Below, one piece after another: positions 14,817 through 55,527 of a stretch of DNA of 64,000 nt. Every line of letters begins with the position of its first letter. Position 1 is the first letter of the stretch. Origin of the DNA: Bacteroidaceae bacterium (GTDB lineage Bacteria; Bacteroidota; Bacteroidia; Bacteroidales; Bacteroidaceae). The stretch is from positions 1 through 64,000 of the forward strand of contig JAKSLM010000010.1 of the NCBI GenBank assembly GCA_024401225.1, written 5' to 3'. Below the pieces are notes generated by a model. That model did not search any database. It had not been told where the DNA came from and saw only the letters and a program-made list of their open reading frames with translations. The position numbers and the translations under genes are program-made.

Positions 14817-15030
14817 AGGGGTTTTCAAGGGGAAAACCTCATTTTTACCACTGAGATTCGCTAACACACTGAAGATGTATAGCATACAAACAGCATTTTG
14901 GTAGCAAAAAACCACTAAAAAACCCACTGACCTGTACTTTCCTAAAAAAGGTTGACTGTTTCAGGTCCGTTTTATGCCTTATTCCTAAGATCTGTTGACC
15001 AGGTGACTTTCCTAAACATCTCAAATGCCA

Positions 15031-15118
15031 AACTCCTTGCAAGGAGTTGCGCTAACCATTGCAAGGAGTCAGTCAAAACATTGCAAGGAATAGTGCGAAT
15101 CCTTGCATGGACATTTAA
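15031..15118. repeat. Array 1: four 22-bp-phased copies of a TTGCAAGGA palindrome
   Basis: Cores TTGCAAGGA start at 15037, 15059 and 15081, and a variant TTGCATGGA at 15103: exactly 22 bp apart each time. The first copy is an 18-bp perfect palindrome, AACTCCTTGCAAGGAGTT (15031-15048); later copies lose bases from the left arm. The spacers differ. The period is not a multiple of three, so this is not a peptide repeat. A sister array lies at 54792. Confidence 0.85.
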
Positions 15119-41371: not shown

Positions 41372-41434
41372 TGAGAGGTGAGAGGTGAGAGGTTAGAGGT
41401 TAGAGGTGAGAGGTGAGAGGTTAGAGGTGAGAGG
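41372..41434. repeat. Heptad tandem repeat (TKAGAGG)9 between GH51 and glsB-like genes
   Basis: Nine uninterrupted 7-bp units, each TGAGAGG or TTAGAGG, fill the space from 5 bp upstream of the GH51 start to the first base before the upstream gene's stop codon. Confidence 0.85.
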
Positions 41435-41698
41435 TTAGTCAAAGAGTTTTTTCCATATCCATAGGAATATGATGGCACCGAGGACGCAGAAGATGAAGTT
41501 CTTGAGGTAGCCTGCGGCGAGGAGGTTGACATCGAGCAGGCTGCTGAGCAATGCTCCGGCATAGCTTCCGATGATGCCAATGATGAGGTTCATACAACAT
41601 CCTTTGCCTTCACCGCTCATGATGCGGTTGGCTATGTAGCCAATGAAGATGCCTGTAAGGATTGGCCACGCTGTGAATTGTGCAATATGTTCTAACAT
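41435..41698 (-). CDS. GlsB/YeaQ/YmgE-family small membrane protein
   Basis: An 87-residue integral membrane protein with three hydrophobic segments (about 8-25, 36-58, 65-84) and the Gly-rich family pattern GIFIGYIANRIMSGEGKGCC...NLIIGIIGSYAGALL. Members are linked to stress response (transglycosylase-associated proteins), with no known biochemical activity. It lies upstream of the GH51 gene on the same strand, joined by the heptad repeat. No consensus promoter box seen. Confidence 0.88.
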   Translation of the reverse strand: MLEHIAQFTAWPILTGIFIGYIANRIMSGEGKGCCMNLIIGIIGSYAGALLSSLLDVNLLAAGYLKNFIFCVLGAIIFLWIWKKLFD

Positions 41699-41720: not shown

Positions 41721-42066
41721 GTTATCGCGAAGCGCTTGGAGCGCAGCGGAAAGAATTTTGAATTTTGAATTATGATTTATACGCCTTCGGCGGACGAAGA
41801 AAAAACAAGTAAAAATATTAGGTTCTACTGGGTTTAGTGTGAATTTATGCGCAAGCGCCAATTAAGAAAACAAAAGAAAACAAAAGAAAACACTTGAAAA
41901 CAAAGTAAATTTGAAGCCAAAGTACGCAAAAGAATCGGTTTTCTTTTGTTTTCCTATGTTTTCTTTTGTTTTCTTAATTGGCCCGAAGGGCACTTTCATA
42001 CGAATTCCCGAAGAACCTTATTTGTTTTTCTTTCGTCCGCTTTGGCGCAGCCAATCTAGCGTAAAA
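41721..42066. repeat. Dispersed intergenic element, copy A, with imperfect inverted ends
   Basis: The left part contains GCTTGGAGCGCAGCGGAAAG and then GCCTTCGGCGGACGAAG at 41783. The right part reads TTTCTTTCGTCCGCTTTGGC (ending 42046) and CCAATCTAGCGTAAA. The two ends are roughly reverse complements (GCC..CGGACGAA..AAAAACAA). Both ends recur around 47436-47647, where the interior differs. This element fills most of the 428-bp gap 41699-42126; no gene is present. Confidence 0.75.
41858..41981. repeat. Long hairpin inside copy A: 25-bp perfect inverted repeat
   Basis: Bases 41858-41882 and 41957-41981 are exact reverse complements over 25 bp, built from GAAAACAAAA-type units. The arms continue imperfectly inward and outward (GCGCCAATTAAG against CTTAATTGGCCC). 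Absent from copy B. Confidence 0.8.
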
Positions 42067-42072
42067 CGTAAC

Positions 42073-42114
42073 GAATTATGAATTATGAATTATGAATTAC
42101 GAATTATGAATTAT
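42073..42114. repeat. Heptad tandem repeat (GAATTAT)6
   Basis: Six 7-bp units GAATTAT (one GAATTAC) lie just past the stop of the S41-like gene. Shorter runs of the same unit are at 41755-41775 and 47341-47375, so it travels with the dispersed element. Confidence 0.8.
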
Positions 42115-42126
42115 GATTTAGGAGTT

Positions 42127-46033: not shown

Positions 46034-46081
46034 ATTAGACGATTAAACGATTAAACGATTAGACGATTAAACGATTAAACG
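46034..46081. repeat. Octad tandem repeat (ATTARACG)6
   Basis: Six perfect 8-bp units, ATTAGACG or ATTAAACG, arranged as two 24-bp super-repeats. It fills much of the 93-bp gap between the SpoIID and MFS genes, 29 bp upstream of the MFS start. Confidence 0.85.
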
Positions 46082-46097
46082 ATTATATATTTATTCA

Positions 46098-47333: not shown

Positions 47334-47340
47334 TTGGGGG

Positions 47341-47375
47341 AATTATGAATTTTGAATTATGAATTTTGAATTATG
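47341..47375. repeat. Heptad tandem repeat (AATTWTG)5 upstream of the SpoIID gene
   Basis: Five alternating 7-bp units AATTATG/AATTTTG begin 7 bp upstream of the start codon. Confidence 0.75.
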
Positions 47376-51872: not shown

Positions 51873-51968
51873 TCGAGACCTCGAAACCTCGAAAACTCGA
51901 AAACTCGAAATATCGAAAACTCAAATACTCAAGAACTCAAAAACTCAAGAACTCAAAAACTTAAAAAC
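51873..51968. repeat. Octad tandem repeat, twelve units, upstream of purC
   Basis: Twelve uninterrupted 8-bp units drift from TCGAGACC through TCGAAAAC to TCAAAAAC. They fill the whole phoH-purC gap and end 7 bp before the purC ATG. Confidence 0.9.
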
Positions 51969-51975
51969 TCATAAT

Positions 51976-53681: not shown

Positions 53682-54425
53682 ATGACAACATACGGACTAC
53701 TTGGCTACCCATTGGGCCACTCCTTCTCACGCCGATACTTCACCGAAAAGTTTGAATCAGAAAGCATCGATGCTGAATACCTCAACTTCGAACTGCCATC
53801 GATGGATCAGTACCTCACCATGCTCGATGAGCACCCTACCCTTCGAGGTCACAACGTCACCATCCCCTACAAGCAGCAAGTCATCCCATTCCTCGATGAG
53901 ATGTCCGATGAGGCTCGTGCCATAGGAGCGGTCAACGTGGTCAAGGTAAGCGAGCGCGATGGCAAGCGCTACCTCAAGGGCTACAACAGCGATGTGATCG
54001 GATTTGTAGACAGCATCAAGCCACTCCTCCGCCCACACCACACCAAGGCACTCATTCTCGGCACAGGTGGCGCATCGCGTGCCATCCGCTACGGACTAGA
54101 GAGCAAGCTCGGCATCGAGGTGCTGTACGTGTCGCGTACACCCAAGGAAGGCATGATAACCTATGCCGACATCACAGCCGAGATACTGAAGCAGTATACA
54201 GTCATCGTCAATTGCACCCCATCGGGAATGTATCCACACGTTGACGAATGTCCCGACCTCCCATACGAACTAATGACATCCGACCATCTGCTCTACGACC
54301 TCGTCTACAATCCTGAAGAAACACTCTTCATGCGCCGGGGAGCAGAACATGGAGCAACAGTCAAGAACGGACTCGAAATGCTTATCGGACAGGCCATCGC
54401 ATCATGGCGTTTCTGGAACGAATAA
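53682..54425 (+). CDS. aroE: Shikimate dehydrogenase
   Basis: A 247-residue NADP-dependent enzyme reducing 3-dehydroshikimate. The substrate motif GYPLGHSFSRRYF is at 8-20, catalytic Lys64 in NVTIPYK pairs with Asp104 in YNSD, and the dinucleotide loop is LGTGGASRAI. The ATG at 53682 is used; the longer frame from 53058 is a shadow of menG. The gene ends the queF-aroE run before a terminator at 54471. Confidence 0.94.
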   Translation: MTTYGLLGYPLGHSFSRRYFTEKFESESIDAEYLNFELPSMDQYLTMLDEHPTLRGHNVTIPYKQQVIPFLDEMSDEARAIGAVNVVKVSERDGKRYLKGYNSDVIGFVDSIKPLLRPHHTKALILGTGGASRAIRYGLESKLGIEVLYVSRTPKEGMITYADITAEILKQYTVIVNCTPSGMYPHVDECPDLPYELMTSDHLLYDLVYNPEETLFMRRGAEHGATVKNGLEMLIGQAIASWRFWNE

Positions 54426-54470
54426 AGTCAAAAAGCAGCTAAACAGCACGAATCTATACACAAAAATCGT

Positions 54471-54514
54471 AGTGCATCTGGTGGTTGTCGCCACAAGATG
54501 CACTATTGTTTTTT
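54471..54514 (+). terminator. Terminator of the queF-aroE run
   Basis: AGTGCATCT (54471-54479) pairs with AGATGCACT (54496-54504). An inner GTGG/CCAC stem and a T6 tail (54509-54514) complete it. An A-rich stretch on the other side makes a bidirectional role possible. Confidence 0.85.
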
Positions 54515-54587
54515 GTTCAAATCTATTAAATTTTGTGTCATTTTCTATAAAAAACGTATCATTCATGTAAATTTTATGCCAAAACAT

Positions 54588-54618
54588 TTTGTTTTTTCGG
54601 CAAAACGCCCTACCTTTG
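54588..54618 (+). promoter_or_regulatory. Orphan promoter before a non-coding segment
   Basis: TTTG at 54588-54591 and TACCTTTG at 54611-54618 with 19-bp spacing form one of the best promoters in the window, yet no plausible protein gene starts within 600 bp. It drives the putative small RNA at 54625. Confidence 0.75.
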
Positions 54619-54624
54619 CACCCA

Positions 54625-54747
54625 GAAAATAAAGTAATTTTTTCAGAGTTAGTTTTTCATAGTATTTGTTCAATTACAATTCCGATCGAGGAATACAACA
54701 ATTGAAGTAACGTGATCAGATGTGTGAACACCGGTCACGTTTTTTTA
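54625..54747 (+). ncRNA. Putative structured small RNA
   Basis: Between an orphan promoter and an intrinsic terminator lies ~120 nt of structured, non-coding sequence. A two-tier hairpin is formed by TTCAATT (54669-54675) with AATTGAA (54700-54706), enclosing ATTCC/GGAAT (54679-54683 / 54690-54694) and loop GATCGA. The 3' end is the terminator hairpin. The 5' third is U-rich. I cannot assign it to a known family; 6S-like or Bacteroidales-specific RNAs would need checking. The 5' end is estimated from the -7 box. Confidence 0.5.
54709..54747 (+). terminator. Terminator of the putative small RNA
   Basis: AACGTGA (54709-54715) pairs with TCACGTT (54735-54741), with an inner GTGT/ACAC helix, and T7 follows from 54740. 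Confidence 0.75.
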
Positions 54748-54791
54748 TTGCCCTTTTACTATGGCTTAATGAATGGACAAAACATTCAAAT

Positions 54792-54879
54792 AACTCCTTG
54801 CAAGGACATGACCAACTCCTTGCAAGGATTCGGGCAACTCCTTGCAAGGACTTCATCAATTCCTTGCAAGGAGTTTTTT
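54792..54879. repeat. Array 2: four 22-bp units with palindrome TCCTTGCAAGGA
   Basis: Units start at 54792, 54814, 54836 and 54858. Each opens with AACTCCTTGCAAGGA (the last has AATTCC) and ends in seven different bases. TCCTTGCAAGGA is a perfect 12-bp palindrome. Spacing is exactly 22 bp, as in array 1. It follows the small-RNA terminator by 45 bp and lies in the gene-free stretch 54426-55257. Confidence 0.9.
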
Positions 54880-54961
54880 CTCCACTTCATAAGATAATTT
54901 TGATGCACACGCTAGGGGTACTCTTGCTGAAAATGATGAGAGTTATCAAAGAGTTCTCAGA

Positions 54962-54997
54962 GCGTTCGCGGAACGATTGCGGAGCGTTCGCGGAACG
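54962..54997. repeat. Second 22-bp-phased dyad pair
   Basis: GCGTTCGCGGAACG occurs at 54962 and 54984, again 22 bp apart; CGTTC/GAACG forms the dyad. It is out of phase with array 2. Downstream, 55065-55119 contains an ATCACCACC/GGTGGTGAT inverted pair and TCG/GAT triplet runs. Confidence 0.65.
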
Positions 54998-55194
54998 TTC
55001 CACCCTCCAACGCGCGCACGTATATTATTAAGAATAGATAAAGAAAAGAGGAAGACGAGATAATATCACCACCCCTCCCTCCTTTCGTCGTCGTCGTGAA
55101 TGATGGTGATGGTGGTGATGATGATATTGAATTCAATATAACCTTACTCCCCGCAAATAAAACGCGGACACAGAGCAACTTTCTTTGAACAAAA

Positions 55195-55226
55195 TTTGTT
55201 TTTCTCATGGATTTTTATTAACTTTG
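55195..55226 (+). promoter_or_regulatory. Promoter of the serpin remnant
   Basis: TTTG at 55195-55198 and TAACTTTG at 55219-55226, 20 bp apart, 32 bp upstream of the remnant's ATG. The promoter is intact although the gene is broken, and could still serve the lipoprotein at 55569. Confidence 0.75.
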
Positions 55227-55257
55227 CACAAAACTTAAAGAATAACAAAATAAAATC

Positions 55258-55527
55258 ATGAAAGTTACGAAAACAGGATTTCACCTTGCAACATTGCTCT
55301 TTGCTGCGTTGTTATCGATTGCATTCGTGTCGTGCTCAAAGTCGACGGAATCGATCGATGAGGAGGTGGTGAAGTAGCTGCAGCCACTCACTTGCGATTG
55401 GAAACCTCCAATGGTGGCGAACTGCCTAAGCCTATCGTAGTAACACTCGACCACCCATTCGTGTTCTGCATCATGGAGCATAGCACCAGTTTCCCTTTGT
55501 TCATAGGTTCTGTTGAACGACCTTGAT
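55258..55527 (+). pseudogene. Serpin-family lipoprotein remnant with the body deleted
   Basis: The ATG at 55258 opens a 39-codon frame with a lipoprotein signal (IAFVSCSKS) that stops at 55378. In the next frame from 55368, translation reads GEVAAATH, the serpin reactive-loop hinge, and continues to DHPFVFCIMEHSTSFPLF, the serpin C-terminal strand. A second shift near 55500 restores IGSVERP and a stop at 55527. Roughly 300 residues of the serpin fold between signal peptide and hinge are absent. Two frameshifts plus deletion make a functional product unlikely. Bacteroidales serpins are protease inhibitors of the cell surface. Confidence 0.7.

Follow-up and report, generated by a model that had tools for sequence, protein, structure and literature searches.

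Phased 22-bp arrays of a 12-bp palindrome lie between the genes of a Prevotella-like bacterium, and relatives carry arrays of the same plan with other cores

Arrays of tandem protein sites about two turns apart are known from iterons and from centromeres of the ParR/omega type. Among intergenic repeats, the BrickBuilt elements of Porphyromonas gingivalis are MITE-like and comprise 19 intergenic elements of up to 22.8 units, in which a leader and a tail surround direct repeats of a 23-nt tandem unit, AGAYCATARTATCCTCTCRTRTG (PMC4596501). PINSR of Prevotella intermedia/nigrescens is a 188-bp intergenic repeat present in 177-184 copies, for which no terminal inverted repeats are reported (PMC4755523). 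REP/BIME elements are palindromic, extragenic, often downstream of genes, lineage-specific and clustered, and they carry a GTAG or CGTC tag, a tetranucleotide placed at one end of the palindrome (PMC3733652).

The arrays described here were followed up from a window of 64,000 nucleotides (G000:C2:1-64000) in the assembly of a Prevotella-like gut bacterium (3.0 Mb, 105 contigs, 84% complete), hereafter the source genome or G000. The original prediction had placed four units of a palindrome, TCCTTGCAAGGA, at a spacing of 22 bp in this window, and these positions are exact (Table 1). Each unit reads AACTCCTTGCAAGGA, except the last, which has AATTCC, and the spacers are CATGACCAAC, TTCGGGCAAC and CTTCATCAAT. 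The sister array with the same core and spacing, also predicted, has one perfect core and three slightly changed ones, CCATTGCAAGGA, ACATTGCAAGGA and TCCTTGCATGGA, which depart from it at two, two and one bases. When as many as two mismatches are allowed, the window contains 11 copies of the core where 3.01 would be expected, and 100 dinucleotide shuffles never produced that many.

Table 1. Coordinates of the arrays and adjoining features (window positions unless a contig is given)
Feature	Position	Strand	Remarks
Four-unit array	54792..54879	.	unit starts 54792, 54814, 54836, 54858; spacing exactly 22
Perfect cores TCCTTGCAAGGA of the four-unit array	54795-54806, 54817-54828, 54839-54850, 54861-54872		
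Six-T run	54874..54879	+	immediately 3' of the last core's GAG
Sister array, four units	15031..15118	.	same 22-bp phase; first core perfect
Stretch CTGTTTCAGGTCCGTTTTATGCCTTATTCCTAAGATCTGTTG beside the sister array	14958..15002	+	by eye also adjoins other arrays of the source genome (L030, L068)
Near-uniform 22-bp tandem repeat in G126, similar core CCTTGCAAGGATATCCTCAACG	C143:9739 and C210:12820-12895		

Searching the whole source genome for TTGCAAGGA-N13-TTGCAAGGA with at most two mismatches gave 200 forward and 194 reverse matches, and 0 and 0 for the reversed-pattern control; owing to the palindromic core, most matches show up on both strands. A sequence-only model of the array returned 201 matches, of which 150 were listed; as 150 of 1903 first-look candidates were scored, the total for the genome is a lower bound. 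The source genome carries at least 67 loci with multi-unit arrays of the core at exact 22-bp spacing, having 2, 3, 4, 5, 6 or 7 units in 2, 9, 27, 19, 7 and 3 arrays, respectively. The 297 units comprise 171 with a perfect core, 38 with a single change, 38 with two and 50 with three or more. Nearly all arrays lie between predicted genes, and some overlap ORFs called by length only. The motif thus recurs at strict 22-bp phase across the genome and is not a single duplicated fragment, in agreement with the original prediction. Several arrays sit at contig ends, which calls for caution from annotators and assemblers, and some loci are possibly assembly copies at such ends (the flanks of L092 and L108 are 91-94% identical). 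An Rfam search of 16 sources (142,424 bases) had its only hits in L062, to an SRP RNA and a tRNA that both lie away from the array, and a known structured RNA was rejected on this basis. The titles and abstracts listed by literature searches, with subscription journals mostly outside their reach, contained no description of this family; the core string itself appeared in one paper on an unrelated subject.

Set against these known elements, the arrays of the source genome resemble BrickBuilt in being intergenic, present at many loci and built of a variable number of units of about two turns. The likeness to BrickBuilt drawn in the original prediction holds best for the layout of the arrays in a relative, G009, which have a leader and a tail, and fails for the unit sequence: in the source genome the unit is 22 bp, its core is unrelated to AGAYCATARTATCCTCTCRTRTG, and most arrays share no leader or tail. 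Membership in BrickBuilt was therefore rejected, since an unrelated palindromic unit stands in place of AGAYCATARTATCCTCTCRTRTG. Like PINSR, the arrays are intergenic, lineage-specific and of high copy number; PINSR, however, is described as a 188-bp repeat. The arrays share with REP/BIME their palindromic, extragenic, 3'-biased, clustered and lineage-specific nature, and differ from it in their strict contiguous 22-bp phase and in having neither the tag nor a linked RAYT. GTAG and CGTC occur in 4 and 1 of the 297 unit windows, respectively, compared to 43 and 30 in control windows 300 bp away. The source genome has one Y1_Tnp (RAYT-like) gene, which lies beside the array at L068 and carries another palindrome, and no match to Y1_Tnp was found in the array carriers G009, G036 and G044; a RAYT gene flanked by the array repeat was thus not found, and the search linked no transposase to the arrays in these four genomes. 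Membership in the REP family defined by these tags was accordingly rejected, although the 3' extragenic bias is shared. The Y1_Tnp ORF itself (L068:1787-2990, G000:C11) is flanked and, in frame, interrupted by the long palindrome TGGATAATCAAGGGGTCWGACCCCTTGATTATCCA, which is read into the peptide WIIKGSDPLIIH.

Iterons and ParR/omega centromeres differ from the arrays in another respect, as the latter sit at many chromosomal loci whose neighbours have no replication or partition family in common. Pfam searches assigned 72 families to 74 neighbouring ORFs of 300-1300 nt in the source genome and 34 families to 24 neighbouring ORFs in G009, none of them more than twice. With 67 loci and no shared gene family, the suggestion of a partition site has no support. 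The suggestion of a regulatory site fared no better: an operator is unlikely because the arrays favour gene 3' ends and their neighbours share no pathway, and the regulon reading was rejected in both genomes. Nor did the neighbours offer a candidate for a protein that binds the units, as a family recurred in at most 2 of the 74 and 2 of the 24 ORFs.

The bias to gene 3' ends is supported by several counts. In the source genome, with ORFs of at least 300 nt, 58 arrays lie in 21 converging, 27 tandem and 10 diverging gene gaps; for comparison, the 71 further gaps of 100 bp or more at the same loci divide into 15, 36 and 20. Arrays are within 50 bp of a facing stop codon in 19 of 48 cases, where placing them at random in these gaps gives 12.3+-2.3 (p = 0.007), and within 50 bp of a start in 2 of 37; the array at L058 is 16 and 11 bp from two converging ORFs. 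The 20 arrays counted in G009 are convergent in 14 cases, tandem in 6 and divergent in none, these being raw counts. A T run is found within 9 nt outside the array at 32 of 126 ends in the source genome, compared to 2 and 8 in two control windows, and such runs are weakly enriched where incoming transcription would leave the array (22 of 69 ends vs 9 of 47, one-sided p = 0.09).

At the array that gave rise to this work, which is located 367 bp behind aroE, the fold predicted for the RNA (-47.8 kcal/mol, z -9.72) consists of nested stems, the outer of which enters the run of six U. A stable predicted hairpin followed by a T run is therefore present at 54792-54879, and the array together with its T run has the appearance of an intrinsic terminator that would act on transcripts arriving from the left. 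A terminator scan of 54400-55300, which counts loops of 3-8 only, found none. The same scan did not report the hairpin end of a candidate small RNA behind aroE (54622-54748), which ends in a hairpin with a T run and whose promoter was called by eye. This candidate is 74% identical over 142 nt to the corresponding place in the relative G003, with weaker matches in loci of G025 and G032; by eye, the aroE-sRNA region of G003 has no visible array.

The spacers had been taken as unrelated and free, which is not the case. In the source genome 179 spacers yield 358 half-spacers, in which position 2 outward from the core is T or A in 354, position 3 is T in 231, C in 100, A in 24 and G in 3, and position 5 is mostly G or A; 152 distinct spacers were counted among the 179. 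Every 22-bp unit consists of two 11-bp half-sites that face opposite ways, and this alternation is strict throughout an array, which brings equivalent positions round about once in each turn of the helix. Within an array, adjacent spacers show direct similarity (z 5.7 in G000, 2.3 in G009), and complementarity between spacers is absent at distances 1-3 in both genomes (z -0.3 to -2.4). Complementary end triplets within a spacer are rare, 11 of 183 against 25.1+-4.1 after shuffling in G000 and 1 of 97 against 12.8+-3.2 in G009. Because TTC...GAA spacers are in excess in the source genome (8 vs 1.4) and complementary ends such as ATAACTTAT are common in 21-bp arrays of relatives, a rule against complementary spacer ends is not general. 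Among the 32 units of G000 with both halves changed, a single one has the same change on both sides (1.6+-1.1 after shuffling), and 18 of 65 units in G009 are symmetric (22.8+-3.2). The 32 doubly changed units, out of 264, exceed the roughly 17 expected under independence, an excess due to degenerate units that are mostly at array ends; changed halves thus cluster in the same units, and half-sites are not strictly independent. The unmirrored core changes and the lack of co-variation between spacers speak against selection for a long stem, and a long hairpin with paired spacers or flanks was rejected, since the spacers are not complementary and the outward flanks of 62 arrays do not match each other.

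The original prediction had pointed to related genomes as a place to search for the motif. The exact TCCTTGCAAGGA pair pattern is found in none of the other 44 genomes of the genus, whereas relatives carry the same design with other cores. The nearest relatives of the source genome are about 70% identical to it in DNA. In an even sample of 399 genomes of the family, taken from a larger group, a pair pattern allowing one mismatch was found in two, the source genome (152/151 matches) and G126, a distant genome of another genus in which four matches in two contigs form an almost identical 22-bp tandem repeat. A search of named genomes with the pair pattern gave four stretches, of which two are true arrays in contigs of a Bacteroidaceae MAG from horse faeces (JAKSLI01); the stretches in Agaribacter and Roseicyclus have two palindromes each and look unrelated. 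Outside arrays and short repeats, the two MAG contigs do not match the source genome, and they therefore gave no empty site. Four stretches of viral contigs match the pair pattern; they have at most two units each and by eye fall outside the family.

Scanning the aroE region of relatives revealed a 22-bp periodic palindrome in G009, which carries GAAnnATnnTTC arrays at 22 bp; GAANNATNNTTC-N10-GAANNATNNTTC occurs 155 times in this genome and in none of the 44 others or the controls. Arrays of GAAYAATTRTTC at 21 bp, with a core close to that of G009, are present in 8 of 45 genomes with from 1 to 38 matches. Pairs of GACTCGAGTC occur in 6 of the 45, five of them (G018, G020, G036, G038 and G040) with arrays of the TGACTCGAGTCA palindrome at 22 bp and G024 with one match to another palindrome. 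As cores recur in several relatives, they are restricted by lineage but not each confined to one genome. The pattern of conserved dyads two helical turns apart, noted in the window, holds in the source genome and in these other array families. For 3 of the 21 arrays in G009, a neighbouring gene belongs to a family that also adjoins an array of the source genome (aroE, a pair 56% identical and a pair 34% identical); about one such case would be expected by chance, as estimated from rough gene numbers.

To look for such arrays de novo, 744,746 bases from 17 relatives were scanned for near-palindromic 12-mers that recur three times with a period between 14 and 35. Of the 30 hits with a score of at least 42, 20 have periods of 21 (6), 22 (8) or 23 bp (6), including two (L163 and L203) at places seen before sampling. 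The other ten are at 14 bp (six, from 7-bp repeats) and, once each, at 18, 20, 25 and 26 bp. By eye, low-complexity sequence accounts for 5 of the 20 (L165 three times, L171 and L194) and for 9 of the 10. A mononucleotide shuffle of 542 kb reached a maximum score of 38 at periods 20-24. The scan also brought up palindromic arrays with a period of 21-23 bp and yet other cores, at L205:17801 (G036), L195:1155 (G043), L202:12267 and L204:9107 (G035), and L201:5924 and 5996 (G011). The window itself also has tandem arrays of 7-8 bp (TGAGAGG, GAATTAT, ATTAAACG, CTCGAAAA) at 41372-41435, 41753-41780, 42073-42120, 46034-46085, 47340-47375 and 51880-51970.

In some cases the arrays belong to larger repeats. 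Fifteen aligned copies in G009 share a leader before and a tail behind an array of variable unit number; the array there is one component of a longer degenerate element whose leader and tail are conserved, and so may not be the selected part. This leader and tail have no counterpart at the loci of the source genome, the few BLAST matches being located in or beside genes. Of the 134 array ends in the source genome, 30 have flanks that align in register with those of another end, in ten groups, one of which (L072/L083) possibly reflects gene similarity. A conserved end, TTCTTACTA, occupies outward position 11 at 10 of the 124 ends compared and is absent from the control stretch. By eye, the 21-bp arrays start and end symmetrically with GAAGTCGTTC / GAACGACTTC. 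A repeat of about 550 bp, 88-90% identical and containing inverted repeats, starts inside or at the arrays of L066:3001-3588, L092:3011-3597 and L115:3011-3557.

The original prediction left a choice between a protein-binding array and a mobile repeat family, as opposed to random tandem duplication. Both of the former remain live readings, and the at least 67 loci oppose the latter. A plain slippage minisatellite with neither function nor mobility would account for the likeness of neighbouring spacers, as expected of unit duplication, yet it is hardly credible given that spacers have diverged at so many separate loci while the cores are conserved, and that relatives show the same two-turn design with different cores. 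A non-autonomous, MITE-like element in which a minisatellite was trapped, its palindromes serving as transposase sites and its array having no role in the cell, is unlikely but a real possibility: it would fit the copy number and intergenic spread, the leader and tail common to the G009 copies, the bounded 21-bp arrays, the conserved end in the source genome and the array-free aroE region of G003. Against this, the shared flanks are confined to a minority of ends and fall into several unrelated groups, and no transposase was linked to the arrays in the Y1_Tnp search. A REP/BIME system spread by a RAYT-type tyrosine transposase, which the palindromic, 3'-biased and lineage-specific character of the arrays and the sole Y1_Tnp gene adjoining one of them might suggest, is very improbable when the units lack the tag, the palindrome around and within that gene is a different one, and the other array carriers searched gave no match.

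The folds raise the question of whether the arrays instead act in RNA, as 3'-end hairpins, intrinsic terminators (possibly bidirectional) or mRNA-stabilising stems, with the palindromes serving inter-unit stems. We consider this unlikely. The window array and its sister (-35.1 kcal/mol, z -5.04) are predicted to fold strongly, T runs lie just outside a quarter of the ends counted above, and arrays stand behind genes, as at L058. Against this, core changes are mirrored no more often than by chance, spacers are less and not more complementary than when shuffled, pairing is absent between the two outward flanks, T runs are missing from 94 of 126 ends and 10 of 58 arrays lie between divergent genes. 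A strong hairpin fold of every array follows from its units being palindromes, and a structural role may therefore exist, which counts against the binding reading given below.

The reading we favour, at about even chances, is that the arrays are lineage-restricted short intergenic repeats with a layout like that of BIME or BrickBuilt, whose units are phased sites of a putative dimeric protein and some of which have been reused as terminators. Protein binding would then be the most likely mechanism, judging from sequence patterns, and the main argument that we infer from them for proteins on one helix face is the recurrence of 21-23 bp across different cores; counted against a fixed two-turn phase are the related cores at 21 bp and other arrays at 23. 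Each 22-bp unit would be the site of one dimer, with core contacts in successive major grooves and a putative minor-groove contact at spacer position 2, which is almost always A/T, and the dimers would line up along one face of the helix, where they may bind cooperatively. Arrays could lengthen and shorten through unit duplication and disperse over intergenic regions, being presumably best tolerated behind genes, and copies ending in a T run may have been taken into use as terminators, probably so at 54792-54879.

The presence of arrays with the same plan and other palindromes in several relatives points to an undescribed repeat or DNA-binding system. A bolder reading, which we regard as rather unlikely, is that Prevotella-like bacteria possess an undescribed chromosome-organising system, in which dimeric, array-forming proteins would mark gene ends and the borders of converging genes by rows of 11-bp half-sites on one helix face, the recognition helix and the 12-bp palindrome turning over by lineage while the two-turn layout stays. 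If this were true, each lineage would write the same kind of mark with another word. Different cores on a kept two-turn layout would offer ready material for comparison in the search for a DNA-binding protein or transposase that changes fast, and the array families could be used to test what intergenic repeats do at the 3' ends of genes in major gut bacteria.
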